From Zoogloea ramigera (GTDB taxonomy: Bacteria; Pseudomonadota; Gammaproteobacteria; Burkholderiales; Rhodocyclaceae): a DNA stretch of 64,000 nucleotides. The DNA is taken from the NCBI RefSeq assembly GCF_006539865.1, contig NZ_BJNV01000002.1:1-64000 (forward strand), given 5' to 3'. Below are positions 7,663 to 44,293 of this stretch, in pieces. A program made the position numbers and the translations under genes. The stretch's first letter is position 1. The number at the start of each line of letters is the position of its first letter. A model generated the notes under the pieces. That model was not told where the DNA came from and made no database searches. It was given only the letters and a program-made list of their open reading frames with translations.

Positions 7663-8733
7663 ATGAAAAGAAGCCTTTCGAAGGGCGTCCTCGGCCTGTG
7701 CCTGGGCGCTGCCATGGTCGGCCAGCCTGCCCGCGCGGCGGACGACATCACTGGCGCCGGCTCGTCGGCCGCCGCGCCGGCCTACCGGATCTGGGGCCAG
7801 GAATACCGGAAGGCCGGCGGCGAGGCCCTTGAGTACGACCCGGTCGGCTCCGGAGCGGGCATGGCGCGCATCAAGCAGCGTCAGGCCGACTTTGGCGCGT
7901 CGGATGTGATCGCCCCGCAGGCGGCCCTCGCCAAGGACGGGCTGGTGATGTTCCCGACCGTGGTGTCGGGGATCGTCCCGGTGGTGAACCTGCGCAAGGG
8001 CGGGGCACCGCTCAAGCTGAGCGGAGAGGTGCTGGCGCGGATCTTCCTGGGCGAGATCAGCCACTGGCAGGCTCCCGAGATCGTGGCCCTCAACCCGGGC
8101 GTGAGCCTGCCGAACGAGGCCATCCGCGTGGTGTGCCGGAGCGACGGCTCCGGCTCGACGCACCATTTCTCCGATTACCTGAGCAAGGTCAGCCCGGCCT
8201 GGAAGGCGAGCTTCGGCGTGGCCAGCAAGCACCCGTGGCCGGAGGGCTTCATCGCCGTCAAGGGCAGCGGGGAGGTCTCGAAGACGGTCCGCAGCACGCC
8301 GGGGGCCATCGGTTACATCGATTACAGCTACGTGGTCGAGGACCACCTGACCCCGGTTCAGCTGAAGACGGCCAGCGGGCGGTATCTCAGCGCCTCGCCC
8401 GAGAGCTTCCGCAGCGCGGTGGTGGGCAGCCGCTGGTTCTCCCACGGGGATTTCTCGGAGGGCCTGATCCAGATGCCCGGCGAGGGTGCGTGGCCGATCA
8501 CCATGGGCACCTATGTGGCGCTGCCGAAGGTGGCCGCCGATACGGCGCGGACCGCCCGCGCGCTGCGTTTCTTCGTGTGGGCCTACGGCCGCGGCGACGC
8601 GCTGGCCCGCCAGGCGAAGTTCGTGCCGCTGCCCGAGAAGGTGCAGGCCAGCGCGTTCCGGGAGCTTTCGAGCGTGGTGGGGAAGAACGGCGAGCCGATC
8701 GGCATGAGTGCGGTGAGCGTGCTCGTCAGGTAA
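7663..8733 (+). CDS. PstS-like periplasmic phosphate-binding protein, copy 1
   Basis: 356 residues with a Sec signal peptide ending near PARA. PstS hallmarks are present in order: GAGSSAAAPAYRIW, the loop YDPVGSGAGMARIKQ, DFGASD, and the oxyanion segment RSDGSGSTHHFSDYL. The start is the ATG at 7663 with GGGAG six bases upstream; an earlier in-frame ATG (7645) is less well placed. No pstC, pstA, pstB or phoU is nearby, so it either serves a permease elsewhere or has a sensing or scavenging role. The neighbour at 8993 is a close paralogue. Confidence 0.85.
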   Translation: MKRSLSKGVLGLCLGAAMVGQPARAADDITGAGSSAAAPAYRIWGQEYRKAGGEALEYDPVGSGAGMARIKQRQADFGASDVIAPQAALAKDGLVMFPTVVSGIVPVVNLRKGGAPLKLSGEVLARIFLGEISHWQAPEIVALNPGVSLPNEAIRVVCRSDGSGSTHHFSDYLSKVSPAWKASFGVASKHPWPEGFIAVKGSGEVSKTVRSTPGAIGYIDYSYVVEDHLTPVQLKTASGRYLSASPESFRSAVVGSRWFSHGDFSEGLIQMPGEGAWPITMGTYVALPKVAADTARTARALRFFVWAYGRGDALARQAKFVPLPEKVQASAFRELSSVVGKNGEPIGMSAVSVLVR

Positions 8734-8822
8734 GCCCCCACGCCAGCCTTTGCCGCCGCAGTCAACCGGGCCCCGCGGGGGCTGCGCGGCCGGAATGGGA
8801 ACCAGGCCCGGCCCGCGGCCAT

Positions 8823-8921
8823 GGCATTTCAAATGCCGGCACCAATCTTTTCACGGGGGGGCGGGCGGCGAGTGACTAAGCTCACGGCTCGATCAACGAA
8901 CCGACAGGCGACGTCCCGCGG
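8823..8921 (+). repeat. duplicated leader of pstS-like gene 2 (copy B)
   Basis: Second copy of the 7482-7582 leader. The 15-mer CACCAATCTTTTCAC is at 8840-8854. The left edge here is a perfect small palindrome (GGCATTTCAAATGCC) that is broken in copy A. Confidence 0.8.
8872..8885. promoter_or_regulatory. CRP/Vfr-like palindrome, copy B
   Basis: GTGA-CTAAGC-TCAC, identical to the copy at 7533-7546 and about 108 bp before the second gene, so both genes would share control. Confidence 0.4.
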
Positions 8922-8992
8922 CCGGCCCGTCGCGCCGCATTCCCGCGCGAGCCTTGGCAGGCAGAAGACGGGGCGTCCCATCGCAGGAAACC

Positions 8993-10054
8993 ATGAACAT
9001 AAGTCTTTCGAAGCGTGCCATTGGCCTGGGCCTGGGCGCCATGCTGACCTGCCAGTTTGCCGCGGCCGCGGACGGCATCGGTGGGGCGGGCTCGTCTGCC
9101 GCCGCGCCGGTCTACCGGACCTGGGCCCAGGAATACCGGAAGGCTGGCGGTGAAGCGCTGGAGTACGATCCGGTCGGCTCCGGCGCGGGCCTCGCGCGCA
9201 TCAAGCAGCGTCAGACCGATTTTGGCGCCGTCGATGTGATGGTCCCCAGGAACGAGCTGGCCCGCGACGGGCTGGTGATGTTTCCGACCGCGGTGTCCGC
9301 CATCGTGCCGGTCGTGAACCTGCGCAAGGGCGGGGCGCCGCTGAAGCTGAGCGGCGAGGTGCTGGCCCGGATCTTCCTCGGCGAGATTACCGCCTGGAAT
9401 GCCCCCGAGATCGCCGCCCTGAATCCGGGGCTGTCCTTGCCCAACGAGCCGATCCGCGTGGTGTGCCGCAGCGATGTCTCCGGGACCACCCATCATTTCT
9501 CCGACTACCTGAGCAAGGTCAGCCCGGCCTGGAAGGCGCGCTTCGGCGTGGTGGGGAGGCCCGCGTGGCCGGCAGGTTTCATCGCAGTCAAAGGCAGTTC
9601 GGAGGTGTCCCGGGCTGTCCGAAGCACGCAGGGGGCCATCGGCTACATCGACTACGGTTATGTCGTCGAGGATGCCCTGACGCCGGTTCAGCTCGCCGCG
9701 GCGAACGGCCGCTATGTCGGCGCTTCGCCGGCAAGCTTTCGCAATGCCGTGGTGAGCAGCCGCTGGTTCACCCACGGCGATTTCTCGGATAGCCTCACCC
9801 AGATGCCCGGCGAGGGCGCCTGGCCGATCACGATGGGCACCTATGCGGTGGTCCCGAAGGTGGCCGGCGAACCGGAGCGTGCGGCGCGGACGCTGCGTTT
9901 CTTTTTATGGGCTTACGATCACGGCGATGCGCTGGCGCGGCAGGCCAGGTTCTCCCCGCTGCCGGAGAAGGTCCAGGCCAGCGCCTTCCGCGAGCTCTCA
10001 AGCGTGATCGGCAGGAACGGCGAGCCGATCGGCCTGAACGCGCTGGTCAGATGA
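8993..10054 (+). CDS. PstS-like periplasmic phosphate-binding protein, copy 2
   Basis: 353 residues, collinear with copy 1 over its whole length and clearly a tandem duplicate. Signal peptide is MNISLSKRAIGLGLGAMLTC onward; the start at 8993 has AGGAAA just upstream. Binding motifs are kept with small changes: DFGASD is DFGAVD and RSDGSGSTHH is RSDVSGTTHH, so the Ser next to the binding Asp and one glycine of the oxyanion loop differ. That could shift affinity or ligand between the two copies. The gene converges with the small minus-strand gene after a gap of 8 bp. Confidence 0.85.
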   Translation: MNISLSKRAIGLGLGAMLTCQFAAAADGIGGAGSSAAAPVYRTWAQEYRKAGGEALEYDPVGSGAGLARIKQRQTDFGAVDVMVPRNELARDGLVMFPTAVSAIVPVVNLRKGGAPLKLSGEVLARIFLGEITAWNAPEIAALNPGLSLPNEPIRVVCRSDVSGTTHHFSDYLSKVSPAWKARFGVVGRPAWPAGFIAVKGSSEVSRAVRSTQGAIGYIDYGYVVEDALTPVQLAAANGRYVGASPASFRNAVVSSRWFTHGDFSDSLTQMPGEGAWPITMGTYAVVPKVAGEPERAARTLRFFLWAYDHGDALARQARFSPLPEKVQASAFRELSSVIGRNGEPIGLNALVR

Positions 10055-10062
10055 GGCTGGGC

Positions 10063-10536
10063 TCAGCGCCGGCCCTTGCCGCCGCGCCAGGGGCTGCGGC
10101 GGGTGTCTTCTTCTTCGACCTTGGGCTTGGGCATCAGCAGGTTCTTGCCGGGCTCCTTGGCGGCGGCGCGCTGGGCGAGCACCGCGGTGTCCACCTGGGC
10201 CTGGCCCAGATGCACGCTCTGGAAATTGGCCGGGCCGTCGAAGGCGGCGAGCTTGCCGCGCAGGTGGGTGACGAGGCCGGCGGTGTCGGTTCTTTTGGGC
10301 AGCCCGACCATCAGCTGCTGGCCCGCGGCGGTGAGCGAGAAGCGGTCGTCCTCGACCTGCACCAGGCCGTGGGCGGTGAGGCGCCGGATGGTGTCGATCA
10401 GCCGGCTGGTGCCGGGCACGGCCTCCAGCAGCGGCTCGAAGCCGGCCATGATCTCGACGAGCTCCGCCGGGCGGCGCTTGGAGGCGAGCGTGGTGGCAAG
10501 AAGAAAGAGGGCGTCGGTGTCGGAGATCGGGTGCAT
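10063..10536 (-). CDS. small protein of unknown function, winged-helix-like
   Basis: 157 residues starting MHPISDTDALFLLATTLASK. The first 90 residues look alpha-helical and pass through RLIDTIRRLTAHGLVQVEDD and FSLTAAGQQLM, which reads like the recognition helix and wing of a winged-helix domain (compare 'G.v......y.LT..G' in MarR/PadR proteins). The end is charged and low-complexity (PKPKVEEEDTRRSPWRGGKG). No family is recognised with confidence. A 68-bp gap separates it from the upstream diguanylate cyclase gene on the same strand. Confidence 0.6.
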   Translation of the reverse strand: MHPISDTDALFLLATTLASKRRPAELVEIMAGFEPLLEAVPGTSRLIDTIRRLTAHGLVQVEDDRFSLTAAGQQLMVGLPKRTDTAGLVTHLRGKLAAFDGPANFQSVHLGQAQVDTAVLAQRAAAKEPGKNLLMPKPKVEEEDTRRSPWRGGKGRR

Positions 10537-10604
10537 GGCTGGCGTGCTGGCGGGCGGTTGCGCGGGGCCATGAGTGTACGCGTTTTCGGGCGCGGCTGCC
10601 GCGC

Positions 10605-12335
10605 TCACTGTGCGGCGAAGCGGATCTGGTTGCGCCCGGCCGCCTTGGCCTGGTACATCGCCCCGTCGGCGAGCTTGAGGATGGCCTCCATGTTGCTCTC
10701 TTCGGGCGGGAACAGGGTCACGCCCAGGCTCGCCGAGCACCGATGCTCCACTGTCCGGGCGGGCCCGCCGTCGTCGCCGAGCGCCAGGCTGTAAGGCCGG
10801 GCGAGGGCGTCGCGGATGCGCTCCGCAACCTCGACGACATAAGCGCGGGTGGTGGCGTGGTCGGGAGCCACGTTGACCAGCAGCGCGACGAACTCGTCGC
10901 CGCCCAGGCGGGCCACGGTGTCTTCCTCGCGCAGGCAGTGGGCGAGGCGCCGGGCGGCCTCCTGCAGCAGCAGATCGCCGGCGCGGTGGCCATGCCGGTC
11001 GTTGACCGGCTTGAAGTTGTCGAGATCGAGGTAGATCACCGCGCCGTGCCGCCCGCTGCGGCGGCTTTGCGCCACGGCCTGGGCCAGGCGGTCGAAGAAC
11101 AGGCGGCGGTTGGGCAGGCCGGTGAGGGCGTCGTAGAACGCCAGCTGGTGGATCTTGGCCTCGTAGAGCTTGCGGTCGGTGATGTCGCGAATCGAGGCCA
11201 GCAGGGTCGGCTCGCCGTCGAGGTCCATGGCGCTCAGGACGACATCGACGGGGACTTCGGCGCCGTTGTCGTGGCGCCGCTGCACCCACTCGAAACGGAG
11301 ATGCCCCAGGCGCGAGGCGCTCGCCATGTGCTCCCCGGCGAGCTCTTCGGAGGTCTTGCCGCAGGGCTGCACGGCGGGGGCGAAGTCCCAGGGATGGAGC
11401 TCGCGCAAGGCGTCCCGGCTGGTCACGCCCAGCATGTCGAGGAGGGCCTGGTTGCCGTCGATGATCCGGCCTTGCCGGAGCACCGCCACCGCATCGTGGC
11501 TGGCTTCGAAGAGGGTGCGGAAACGCGCCTCCGAACGCAGCGTGGCGGCCTGGGCGTCCTTGAGTTCGGTGATGTCCGAGGCGAAGCCGAGCAGGCAGTC
11601 GGGCTGTTCGGGCCGGCGCAGCAGCAGCTTCTTCAGCCAGAAGTGGCGCAGCCTCCCGTCGGCGGTCGGCATGAGCACCTCGGTGGTCTGCTTCTCGCCG
11701 CGGGCAAACACCAACTCGTCGGATGCCCGCACGTGCTGGACGACTTCGGGGGGCAGCAGCTCGCTGTCCTGCATCCCCAGGAGCTCCTCCGGCGTGCGCC
11801 GAAACAGCGCGGCGGCGGCGCGGTTGGTGTAGGTGTAGCGGTGGTCCTGGCCCTTGGTGTAAATGTAGCCATCCACGCTGTCGAGGATCGCATCGAGGAA
11901 CTGCTGGTTCTCCTTGAGGGCCTGCTCGAAGTGCTCGCTCTCGGTGATGTCGATGGAGACCCCCGACAGGCCGACGATTTCGCCTTGCGGCCCGACGATG
12001 GGCGTCTTGATGGTCAGGTAGCGATGCCGCGCGCCGCTCTTCTTGAAGAAGCGGGTCTCCCGCTGCTGCGTGCTCTGCCCGGAGGCAAGAACCTTTGCGT
12101 CATGCTCGTGGAGCAGGGTGGCGGTGTCGGCGTCGAAGAACTCATCGGCCGTGTGGCCCACCACGTTTTCGAGGGGCGCACCCACCAGCTCGCAGAAGTG
12201 CTGGTTGGCGTAGGTGTAGCGGTAGCGGTCGTCCTTGCTGAAGATCAGGGCGCCGACGTTGTCGAGGGCGGCCCGGAGGGCGTCCAGTTCACCCTGGGGT
12301 GAACGATTGTTGCGCCCCATGTCGCGGCAAGCCAT
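10605..12335 (-). CDS. diguanylate cyclase with three PAS domains
   Basis: 576 residues, no membrane segment. Three PAS/PAC units lie at about 15-135 (YTYANQHFCELVG), 140-265 (YTYTNRAAAALFR) and 275-395, then a GGDEF domain from about 405. The catalytic motif is intact (ARLGGDEFVALL), the substrate segment DALTGLPNRRLFFDRL is present, and the inhibitory I-site RxxD (REED) sits five residues before GGDEF, so product feedback is expected. It should make cyclic di-GMP in response to a soluble or redox cue. The start MACRDMGRNN is preceded by GAGGGGG. It is alone on the minus strand, divergent from hflX. Confidence 0.93.
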   Translation of the reverse strand: MACRDMGRNNRSPQGELDALRAALDNVGALIFSKDDRYRYTYANQHFCELVGAPLENVVGHTADEFFDADTATLLHEHDAKVLASGQSTQQRETRFFKKSGARHRYLTIKTPIVGPQGEIVGLSGVSIDITESEHFEQALKENQQFLDAILDSVDGYIYTKGQDHRYTYTNRAAAALFRRTPEELLGMQDSELLPPEVVQHVRASDELVFARGEKQTTEVLMPTADGRLRHFWLKKLLLRRPEQPDCLLGFASDITELKDAQAATLRSEARFRTLFEASHDAVAVLRQGRIIDGNQALLDMLGVTSRDALRELHPWDFAPAVQPCGKTSEELAGEHMASASRLGHLRFEWVQRRHDNGAEVPVDVVLSAMDLDGEPTLLASIRDITDRKLYEAKIHQLAFYDALTGLPNRRLFFDRLAQAVAQSRRSGRHGAVIYLDLDNFKPVNDRHGHRAGDLLLQEAARRLAHCLREEDTVARLGGDEFVALLVNVAPDHATTRAYVVEVAERIRDALARPYSLALGDDGGPARTVEHRCSASLGVTLFPPEESNMEAILKLADGAMYQAKAAGRNQIRFAAQ

Positions 12336-12716
12336 GACAGCCCCCTCTTCGCAAGAAGATCGGAATTGAAAAATTTGTTATTTATTCCCTGAAGCTATTC
12401 TAGTACAAGACGTGGTGCCCCCCTTGACGTATCGCGTCCGGTAACAGCCCTTCAGCGCTGGGGCTCCGCATTCCGGTGTATGCGAAGTGGCTTGGGCTGG
12501 CGTGGCCTGCTCCTTGGATGTCTTTCTGTGGCGCGGGTTGGCTGCGATGATCCAGCATGAAAATGGCGCGTGTTTGCGATAAATGTCATATTCGCGATAT
12601 CCGGCGCCCACGCCCGAAGGCGCTGCGCTCGCCGTCCCGATGCGAGCCCGGTGGGGGTGTTTCGCCCCGCTGCGGGTACTATCCGTGTTCAACCACTCAA
12701 AAGAAGCCGATTGCCG
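12336..12716. other. divergent intergenic region, diguanylate cyclase/hflX
   Basis: 381 bp between divergent genes. It is AT-rich at 12362-12402 (probable promoter side for the minus-strand gene). No hairpin, tRNA or small gene could be supported. Confidence 0.4.
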
Positions 12717-41714: not shown

Positions 41715-42029
41715 GTGAAAAACACTGGCGCTCTGGCTTGCGGTAAGGATGTTATGGAAAACATCGTTGTTTTTCGGTGAAGGATTTAGTTTTACGGCGA
41801 AAAACAAAATCTTTCTGTGAAAAAACTCAATTGTTCGGGCTGTAGATTGAGTTGTCGGAGCTGTAGATTGAATTGTTCGGGCTGTCGATAGAGTTTCACG
41901 CCGAAAAACTCAATCGTCAGGCCTGTCGATGACGATGTTTGGGCAAACAACAACGTTGTCGGCGCTGTCGATGACGTTGCAGGCGGGAAAACAGTGTTGT
42001 TCGGGGTGGTGGTGATGTTGTCGGTGCGA
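41715..42029. repeat. 21-bp-periodic, hairpin-rich repeat array 2
   Basis: About fifteen degenerate units of 21 bases (slipping by one base near 41904-41925). Units at 41841, 41862 and 41883 start TGTAGATTGA / TGTAGATTGA / TGTCGATAGA. AAAAACTCAAT occurs at 41821 and again 83 bases later. Adjacent units form inverted pairs such as ACTCAAT...ATTGAGT and GAAAAC...GTTTTTC. Layout matches array 1 at 25534-25974 although the words differ. It starts 68 bp after the ATPase stop and precedes the integron fragment. Confidence 0.75.
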
Positions 42030-42349
42030 CGGGGCGGCGTGTGCGGCGGGTGGGGAGAGTTTGAGGCGGTGTGGGCTGCGGGACGGGGGCGAAGGACTGC
42101 GGCGGAAAGCTTGATGGCGGGGGTGCTCAATGTGGGGCTGCGGGGGGATGAGCGGATGGTGTGGCGTGTTATGTTGTGGGGGTATGATTCGGGGGAGTCG
42201 TGGGAGTGGTGGGGCGGAGTTCGGCCAAGATCGGACGGTCGCCGCCCGATCCAGATAACGGCCATTCGGGCGAGGTGGTAGGCTGTTAGCCTGCGCGCCA
42301 CATGGATCGAATCATCCTACTATGCCGTCGGCTGCTGCTTTCCCTGCCG
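42030..42349. other. non-coding stretch where an integrase gene would be expected
   Basis: In class 1 integrons intI lies divergently beside attI. Here neither strand gives a tyrosine-recombinase reading frame; the only long frame is low-complexity antisense to the array. A weak hairpin TAACGGCC/GGCTGTTA lies at 42256-42288. No promoter is claimed. Confidence 0.5.
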
Positions 42350-42460
42350 TGTTATTTTGCATTGTGCTTAGTTTGCGTTTTTGAACAATAACTTGCCGGC
42401 CGTGTTATCCGGCATTCCGATGTTACGCGGCAGAACTGTCGCCCTAAAACAAAGTTAGCC
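42350..42460 (+). other. attI1-like integron recombination site
   Basis: The segment 42419-42460 matches, from memory, the class 1 integron attI1 end at 37 of 42 positions, including GTCGCCCTAAAACAAAGTTA and the core GTTAGCC at 42454-42460. Upstream are repeats of one word, TGTTATTTTGCA (42350), TGTTATCCGGCA (42403) and TGTTACGCGGCA (42421), which may be the accessory integrase-binding repeats (DR1/DR2). Strand exchange would occur between G42454 and T42455. Confidence 0.85.
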
Positions 42461-42476
42461 AGCAAAGGAATCGCCT

Positions 42477-42929
42477 ATGGATGTCAATTTGATCACTGCA
42501 GTTTCAGCGGCCGCAGGGGCTGTTTTATCTGGCGTTGCTACGACAATAGCGATCATCGTTGCCTACAAAGTGCATCAGAACCAGAAATTACTTTCTCAAC
42601 GGCAACTACTCCTTCCTTTGTGGGACTACATGGCAACGTTAAGCAAAATTGACTCAAACACTCCGGTTACTCCGGATGTAATCAAGGTCGTCAATACGCT
42701 TGAGTTAGTGGCCCTTTGCTGTGAGGGTGGAATGATTGATGAAAAAGTTATACGACGAACATTCAAAGATCAATTCATCGTGCACTACGACGATGTCAAG
42801 AGATGTCGCTCAATTCCAGGGCTTTCAGTTGATGGTGAGGGGCTGCTCAAACAAAACAGGGCAGCCACTGAGTTTTACAACTCGCTTGAGAGTGAAAGAC
42901 TGTCGCAGGATCGTGTTCAACGTGCTTAA
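42477..42929 (+). CDS. cassette-encoded single-pass membrane protein of unknown function
   Basis: 150 residues. One hydrophobic segment at about 5-29 (LITAVSAAAGAVLSGVATTI) anchors a cytoplasmic, mostly helical part that contains VALCCEGGMIDEKVIRRTFK. The layout (short anchor then helical domain) resembles DUF4760-type proteins, but I do not recognise it firmly. First gene of cassette 1, 23 bases after the recombination point with AAAGGAA upstream. Base composition is far more AT-rich than the chromosome around it. Confidence 0.65.
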   Translation: MDVNLITAVSAAAGAVLSGVATTIAIIVAYKVHQNQKLLSQRQLLLPLWDYMATLSKIDSNTPVTPDVIKVVNTLELVALCCEGGMIDEKVIRRTFKDQFIVHYDDVKRCRSIPGLSVDGEGLLKQNRAATEFYNSLESERLSQDRVQRA

Positions 42930-42944
42930 TCAATAGGAAATCAT

Positions 42945-43184
42945 ATGAATGAAAAAACCGTAGTCCAAACTGTTCGTGAGTTTGCAAAGAGTGGCGATCA
43001 AAGATTCAAGAAGTCCTTCTCTGTGTCGGGAAACTCGGATGAAATTATTACCGTCACAATCGAGCGTACCCGGCGAGTTCTGGCAACAGAGAGCCTTTCG
43101 TTTGAGGCCCGTGCCAATACAATCTCAGCCCTCCCATCAGGTGCGCCCTGCGGTTGTTGCGGGGGCTCAGGGAAAGCTGGCTAA
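42945..43184 (+). CDS. cassette-encoded small hypothetical protein
   Basis: 79 residues, starting MNEKTVVQTVREFAKSGDQR, 15 bp after the preceding gene. The C-terminal end is small and glycine/cysteine-rich (GAPCGCCGGSGKAG). The TAA stop lies inside the attC inner core (GGCTAAC), common in cassettes. No domain recognised. Confidence 0.55.
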   Translation: MNEKTVVQTVREFAKSGDQRFKKSFSVSGNSDEIITVTIERTRRVLATESLSFEARANTISALPSGAPCGCCGGSGKAG

Positions 43185-43247
43185 CCCATCATTCCACCGG
43201 ACCTTGCGCATAAAGCCGCGCAAGGCCGGTGAATTCAAACGTTATGC
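43179..43247 (+). other. attC site of cassette 1
   Basis: 69-base imperfect palindrome from GGCTAAC to GTTATGC. Arms around CCACCGGACCTTGCG and CGCAAGGCCGGTGAA pair with the usual unpaired bases. The bottom strand would fold into the hairpin used by the integrase. Confidence 0.9.
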
Positions 43248-44186
43248 CACTCACACCCTACAGCAAGGAAAAAATTCGAATGAATAAGCCACTTACGCAC
43301 GAACAGTTGGTTCAAGAAATCAGCAAAAAAATTACACGAATGCGTTCATATACACCAAAAGTTGGTGTTTTTGGAAATTCTGGAGTTGGAAAATCAAGCC
43401 TTTGCAACGCAATCTTTGGAAAAGAAGTAGCAAAAATAAGTGACGTTGAAGCTTGCACAAGAAAACCCCAAGAAATTCTGATTGGATCAGAAAATAGCGG
43501 AATCGTTCTTGTAGATGTTCCTGGTATCGGTGAGGATCCGACCCATCAAAAAGAATACACCGCTCTTTACAAGAGCTTGGCTCCAGAACTTGATTTGGTT
43601 CTATGGACTATAAAAGCCGATGATAGAAACTACGCATCAGCTCTGGATGCTTACAAGGAAGTATTTGGTGCTAATGAAAAATCACCACCTATTTTATTTG
43701 TGGTCACACAAACAGATAAAACTAACGACATCGAAGACTGGGATCATCAAGAATACAAGCCCGGCGGATCACAGAATGGAAATATTGCCATCAAGGAAAA
43801 TGACATCTCCAAGAGATTCGGCGTTAGTACAAATCAAATAATCTCTGTCGCTGTCTCTAAAAAAGGAAGAGCATACAACCTAAGAGAACTCGTTGAACTC
43901 GTTGTGGAGGCGCTCCCAAACGAAAAAAAGTTCTCTTTCACTCGCGAAGCAAAACAAGAAAACGTAAGCGAGGAGGCAAGAAAAGGCGCTGAAAAAGGAA
44001 TCTGGGACTCTGTTAAGGAGTTTGCCGGAGAAGCATGGGATACAGTTAAAGACAAGGTGGTTGATGTCATTATTGCTTCTGCTCCAAAAATAATCTCCTC
44101 TATTGGACGCTGGATCAAGAGTTGGTTTTAAGCATAACAATTCAATCCAGCCGACGCCCGCAAGCGGGCGCGGCTGATTTCAAGCG
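43242..44186 (+). mobile_element. integron gene cassette 2
   Basis: Starts TTATGC and ends at the G of GTTGAAC. Its attC inner site GCATAAC (44132-44138) is the exact reverse complement of the core GTTATGC at its left end, confirming the boundary. One gene fills it. Confidence 0.9.
43280..44131 (+). CDS. cassette-encoded Era/YfjP-like small GTPase
   Basis: 283 residues. G1 GNSGVGKSS (about 31-39), G2-like Thr in ACTRKPQ, G3 DVPGIGE and G4 TQTDK define a TrmE-Era-EngA-YfjP type GTPase. The C-terminal 70 residues contain a charged segment and a hydrophobic amphipathic end (VVDVIIASAPKIISSIGRWI) that could bind a membrane. The start MNKPLTHEQ is chosen because AGGAAAA precedes it; in-frame ATGs at 43229 (in the previous attC) and 43244 are less likely. 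The gene is strongly AT-rich. Relatives occur in prophages and defence-rich loci; function here unknown. Confidence 0.75.
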   Translation: MNKPLTHEQLVQEISKKITRMRSYTPKVGVFGNSGVGKSSLCNAIFGKEVAKISDVEACTRKPQEILIGSENSGIVLVDVPGIGEDPTHQKEYTALYKSLAPELDLVLWTIKADDRNYASALDAYKEVFGANEKSPPILFVVTQTDKTNDIEDWDHQEYKPGGSQNGNIAIKENDISKRFGVSTNQIISVAVSKKGRAYNLRELVELVVEALPNEKKFSFTREAKQENVSEEARKGAEKGIWDSVKEFAGEAWDTVKDKVVDVIIASAPKIISSIGRWIKSWF

Positions 44187-44192
44187 TTGAAC
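44132..44192 (+). other. attC site of cassette 2
   Basis: 61-base site, GCATAAC to GTTGAAC, with arms CAGCCGACGCCCGC and GCGGGCGCGGCTG. The text is strikingly like the attC of aadA cassettes. No further cassette follows before the sodB terminator. Confidence 0.92.
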
Positions 44193-44293
44193 GACAGCTT
44201 TCCTCAAGGCTCAACGGCCGCCTTGGGTCGATAACAGACATCCCAAACATAAAGCCATAGCATCCCCTTCACCCCAAAACCGCCCCACGCACC

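Follow-up and report, generated by a model that had tools for sequence, protein, structure and literature searches.

The window analysed here is a stretch of 64,000 nucleotides from Zoogloea ramigera (positions 1 to 64,000 of contig NZ_BJNV01000002.1). Within it lies a compact unit that holds an attI1-like site and two gene cassettes, flanked by ORFs for a P-type ATPase and SOD, neither of which is a tni gene. The limits of the unit were set by a scan for termini, together with alignments of left modules and of right ends. Its parts are as follows:

42222..44230, plus strand: whole unit, 2009 bp, from CGGCCA (left) to GGGTCG (right); left boundary from 28 aligned copies
42222..42239, plus strand: left terminal half-site CGGCCAAGATCGGACGGT, at the same position in 30 unique full-length modules
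42222..42454, plus strand: conserved left module without intI, 233 bp to the attI crossover; 84% identical to the family consensus over its full length
42397..42454, plus strand: attI1-like recombination site, to the crossover G; mean conservation 0.88-0.95 across copies
42455..43241, plus strand: gene cassette 1, 787 bp, from the attI crossover to the attC1 crossover
42477..42929, plus strand: cassette 1 ORF, 150 aa, DUF4760 (Pfam PF15956, E 8.8e-8)
42945..43184, plus strand: second ORF of cassette 1, 79 aa, overlapping attC1 (from sequence)
43180..43247, plus strand: attC site 1 (covariance model 46.5 bits, E 1.6e-9; bottom-strand folding z -4.6)
43242..44186, plus strand: gene cassette 2, 945 bp
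43280..44131, plus strand: cassette 2 ORF, 283 aa, small GTPase (MMR_HSR1, Pfam E 1.8e-17)
44132..44192, plus strand: attC site 2 (covariance model 53.3 bits, E 3e-11; bottom-strand folding z -3.5)
44187..44230, plus strand: right conserved segment TTGAACGACAGC...GGGTCG, ending in an inverted half-site and common to class 1 integrons

The likeness to the class 1 attI1 site that had been noticed in a first-pass annotation is borne out. The 3' end of attI1 is identical to GATGTTACGCGGCAGAACTGTCGCCCTAAAACAAAGTTAGCC (42419-42460) at 37/42 bases, of which the final six, TTAGCC, are part of cassette 1 and lie outside attI. The match includes an exact 19-bp core, GTCGCCCTAAAACAAAGTT (42438-42456), which is the sole match in the 64 kb at up to three mismatches and is matched in none of 100 shuffles. 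Further upstream the likeness is lower; an alignment to attI1 scores 67 against 20±4 for shuffles. Both cassettes are also upheld by a covariance model trained on 26 attC sites, all from other genomes, which finds exactly two attC sites in the window. The complementary pairing between attC inner sites and the cores at the left ends of the cassettes is present in both cases (GGCTAAC/GTTAGCC and GCATAAC/GTTATGC). The GC content is 46% in the unit and 67% in the window.

The 79-aa ORF of cassette 1 has no match in a PADLOC search, and the GTPase of cassette 2 has a weak match to LeoA (E 2e-10). A GTPase 71% identical to the cassette 2 protein is encoded on the Aeromonas plasmid pY47-3 (L301 4024-4863), beside a ccdAB-type gene pair. 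A sigma-70 type promoter was sought on the plus strand of this module and not found in the 233 bp. Immediately left of the unit, positions 41831-41895 of the window contain 21-bp tandem repeats of degenerate sequence (TTGTTCGGGCTGTAGATTGAG) and show strong G skew.

The first-pass annotation had described an integrase-less integron fragment at 42350-44192. The integrase-less integron stands, and the extent was too small. The word fragment is probably wrong, because the left module is conserved in dozens of genomes and has a sharp left boundary. The missing integrase gene, at first a remark on the window, holds for the genome assembly, a draft of 207 contigs from which a plasmid may be missing: the top match to the integron integrase model TIGR02249 reaches 23 bits against a cut-off of 265. 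A PRK15417 probe had no match in this genome, a result of no diagnostic value. A search of the same genome with IntI1 returned no match, and the unit therefore falls outside class 1 as defined by an intI1 at least ~98% identical to clinical IntI1; its outer termini are nevertheless those of the class 1 core. Of the components of a complete integron, it has attI and attC-bearing cassettes and lacks intI. With at least two attC sites and no integrase it would be labelled a CALIN by software (PMC9024848, PMC8618304), from which it differs in that its attI platform is conserved, its ends are fixed, it recurs as one family and it is found on mobile plasmids.

A family of integrase-less modules

Relatives were gathered by searching public genomes with the attI core and then aligning the upstream sequence. 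The 28 unique left modules obtained in this way have ~233 bp in common, begin at a sharp boundary, CGGCCA, and contain no integrase. Their right limit is the attI crossover, beyond which the cassettes differ. The attI segment is among the best-conserved parts of the module, and the first six bases of the left half-site are 100% conserved in the 30 unique full-length modules. By our own tally of matches covering most of the module, scoring no more than two places in each genome, the full module is present in about 45/399 Rhodocyclaceae genomes. The 368 genomes searched from the rest of the class yielded no module; one of them has a 39-base match to the attI end only. Searches of phage records and of one viral-contig pattern gave short attI matches only, or none. 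A second copy in the Z. ramigera genome, on contig C9, consists of the same left module, other cassettes (with two attC sites) and the same right segment. Judged by sequence, the unit is one member of a widespread Zoogloea/Thauera-type family and not an isolated relic.

A cassette of the C9 copy (L005 6782-8646) encodes a metallo-hydrolase (PADLOC PDC-M48B, E 3e-130) beside a 252-aa protein without a Pfam match, and is a candidate phage-defence cassette.

Three Japanese plasmids also carry the module. The left modules of pYKBR041 and pMRCP1333 are 100% identical, and that of pN260-3 is at least 99% identical over 81% of the module length. Resistance genes on these plasmids include blaIMP-1 on pMRCP1333 and pN260-3, and aac(6')-31 on pYKBR041. 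No intI1 is listed in the PLSDB gene table for the stretches shown of these plasmids, and the table in the paper on pYKBR041 (PMC9499019) gives aac(6')-31, with no integron named for this plasmid. Integrase-less platforms are thus already present on blaIMP-1 plasmids, and screens keyed to intI1 would miss them.

It is rather probable that we are dealing with an integron platform of non-autonomous type, which receives cassettes through an IntI acting in trans, and which as a whole is a mobile module exchanged site-specifically. Such a platform would keep an attI1-type site and cassettes with no integrase gene of its own, and would gain cassettes at this attI by means of a class 1-like IntI supplied from elsewhere. 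It has to be set against the possibility that the unit is a degraded integron, now inert, whose integrase was lost by deletion. No integrase is found in the genome, as a loss would predict, and degradation is the usual interpretation of CALINs (PMC9024848). In addition, a short likeness between the left module and the intI1 start/Pc region, seen in pairwise alignment (43 against 26.7±4.4 in shuffles), could be a deletion remnant; however, a profile of the middle part of the module does not match any intI1 region significantly (best E 5.6). Decay is an unlikely explanation for a left module which dozens of genomes, and recent plasmids too, carry in the same integrase-less form and with the same ends, and in which attI is among the best-conserved parts.

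Recombination of cassettes by IntI in trans fits the presence of different cassettes behind identical modules, together with the good conservation of attI. The first cassette is aac(6')-31 on pYKBR041, whereas on pMRCP1333 qacF comes first, followed by aac(6')-31, a difference that could reflect the loss of one cassette instead of a gain. Several family genomes encode a full class 1-like integrase elsewhere, and in Thauera propionica this lies on the same contig as the platform. The TIGR02249 search exceeds its cut-off in 14/22 family genomes tested. As some platform-carrying genomes have no integron integrase above that cut-off, capture in trans may be rare or a thing of the past. Integrons of this kind would operate as dispersed platforms for which an enzyme of their own is unnecessary.

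Termini in common with class 1 integrons and Tn402

Class 1 integrons, both chromosomal betaproteobacterial and Tn402-borne, share with the unit the attI core, the attC-bearing cassettes, the CGGCCAnnAGCGG left terminus and the right segment TTGAACGACAGC...GGGTCG. They differ from it in carrying intI1 and its 3' flank, in place of which the unit has the 233-bp left module. The motif of the left half-site is found at their left end also: CGGCCAnnAGCGG lies beyond intI1 and GGGTCG follows the last cassette, Tn402 included. Of the 16 intI1-like loci examined, 12 have CGGCCAnnAGCGGAC, or a close variant of it, as the first bases past the 3' end of intI1. Outside the left terminus the flanks of Tn402-borne and chromosomal class 1 copies differ. 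On the other side, integrase-less and class 1 units have the right segment in common and their flanks diverge thereafter, with ACACCGGTAATCGG continuing in Tn402-borne copies. A class 1 integron that is 98% identical between two genomes loses this identity ~5 bp outside CGGCCA, and in Pigmentiphaga (L076) the right segment is joined directly to an empty attI1.

The same junctions are occupied by other modules in transposons. In pMRCP1333 and pYKBR041 a Tn402-like transposon holds the integrase-less module at the place usually taken by the intI1 module, and in pRSB223 an unrelated module is joined at GGGTCG to the same Tn402 right flank. A search for an empty transposon by joining the Tn402 flanks gave no contiguous record among the best 5000 matches. 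Since both termini are common to intI1-bearing integrons, and since integrase-less copies occur in Tn402-like transposons, attI likeness is not the sole basis of the link to class 1. The suggestion that the locus bears on where class 1 integrons came from holds good, and the initial observation, now confirmed, is of larger importance than was claimed for it.

Probable exchange of modules at a CGGCCA site

The closest available relative (G346) aligns with the Z. ramigera genome on both sides of the C9 unit, the flanks matching on the left through GGACTGCTGTCGGCCA and on the right from GGTCGATAGCGGTCATT. Between these flanks it encodes MerR, MerT and a CopZ-type protein in place of the integron. 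This mercury-resistance-type module is joined at CGGCCA and GGTCGATAGCGG, the same two points as the C9 unit, so that one chromosomal site holds different modules in sister genomes. This swap, at copy C9, is the only one found; where the window copy lies in Z. ramigera, next to the SOD gene, the gene content of the relative differs. Other modules with the same two ends hold a TIR/nSTAND1-WD40 protein or small hypothetical genes.

The two ends resemble each other as inverted half-sites. In seven modules the left and right half-sites are alike at 9.7/18 positions, compared with 5.2 in shuffles (p 2e-4). The consensus of the inverted half-sites is CGRCCMnnAGCnGCCG. The unit has inverted half-sites at both ends that are common to unrelated cargo, as expected of a module moved by a tyrosine recombinase. 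The left outer half-site of the window copy is weak, the site scoring 10.6 bits. Exact palindromic full sites with fewer than two mismatches were not seen in the fetched loci, where most best matches lie at unit junctions. The flanks of every complete copy were inspected and no target duplication was seen.

Taken together, these features suggest that the integrase-less platform sits at an exchange site where relatives carry other modules, a possible route to class 1 mobility. The platform would be a distinct mobile module with an inverted half-site at either end, these ends being the same as those of class 1 integrons, and modules of this type would be exchanged by conservative site-specific recombination, which leaves no target duplication. 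Inverted terminal similarity, many insertion sites and Tn402-like neighbours on plasmids might also be expected of a non-autonomous, MITE-like transposon, mobilised by a DDE transposase acting on terminal inverted repeats. This is very unlikely, however, in view of the missing target duplications and of the unrelated cargo (mer, nSTAND1-WD40, integrons) with the same ends. The sister genome, in which the very same site holds another module, also fits site-specific exchange better. A mobile integron unit whose enzyme comes from elsewhere has a precedent in the MITE-flanked Tn402-like integron (Gillings 2009, listed in PMC8618304), although there MITE-like structures flank the integron, whereas here the integron ends themselves carry the half-sites.

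The exchange enzyme would most plausibly be a small tyrosine recombinase (Phage_integrase) of 206 aa that is encoded in 80/399 genomes of the family. Its gene makes up a unit of its own, ~0.8 kb long, which carries the CGGCCA junction motif too. Two copies of this unit in one genome are 99.9% identical and have different neighbours. CGGCCA is found at its edges, downstream in 31/34 loci and upstream in 25/34, and beyond the edges the sequence is different in most genomes. The distance to a recombinase unit is at most 200 bp for nine integrase-less left ends, and also for a class 1 integron in one genome (G139); in pRSB223 the recombinase is found downstream of a clinical integron. The gene is absent from the Z. 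ramigera genome itself. That this recombinase moves the modules is the likeliest reading of this genetic linkage. The recombinase of pTha01 was also considered as mobiliser and was rejected, as it was not found at other copies.

A short, degenerate motif could also mean that modules are exchanged by homologous recombination between short dispersed repeats, the recombinase unit being a passenger that uses the same target; the 103-bp repeats starting with CGGCCA beside the motif on pRSB223 would suit such a process. Nevertheless, junctions agree to within a few bases over only ~20 bp of similarity, which is little for homologous recombination, and the recombinase is strongly associated with left ends, making this a decidedly unlikely account. 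The repeats on pRSB223 are in tandem, each starting CGGCCA (L242 8708-8914, minus strand), and similar repeats flank the left ends of integrons in L030, L095 and L219.

Site-specific exchange by a recombinase encoded outside the module would resemble the pdif (Xer) modules of Acinetobacter plasmids (PMC12907356), which are likewise bounded by inverted sites and exchanged without a recombinase of their own. The present modules differ in having a CGGCCA core site, another candidate recombinase and integrons as cargo. It is conceivable, and is put forward tentatively, that class 1 and integrase-less integrons alike are cargo of an undescribed Rhodocyclaceae module-exchange system, with a palindromic CGGCCA site and the 206-aa recombinase, and that this was the route by which the ancestral class 1 integron left the chromosome. 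Open-paper searches for the site or the recombinase in connection with integrons found no description of the system, a negative that does not establish absence. Reviews, in the portions available, describe the capture of a chromosomal class 1 integron by a Tn402-type transposon and give no mechanism there. Ends common to chromosomal, Tn402-borne and integrase-less integrons, together with the swap of a whole module at one site, provide a testable mechanism for that capture. If true, exchange at a site whose halves are visible at both Tn402 junctions would account for the exit of the ancestral class 1 integron from a betaproteobacterial chromosome.

Two further observations concern related loci. 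In L282, at 7699-12659, one module with these two ends is taken up by a TIR/nSTAND1-WD40 protein of 1526 aa, indicating that defence-type genes travel in such modules outside integrons. In Thauera propionica and one metagenome assembly, a further tyrosine recombinase, which has 33% identity to IntI1, is encoded near the attI core on the cassette side (L083 1562-2329; L112 880-1647).
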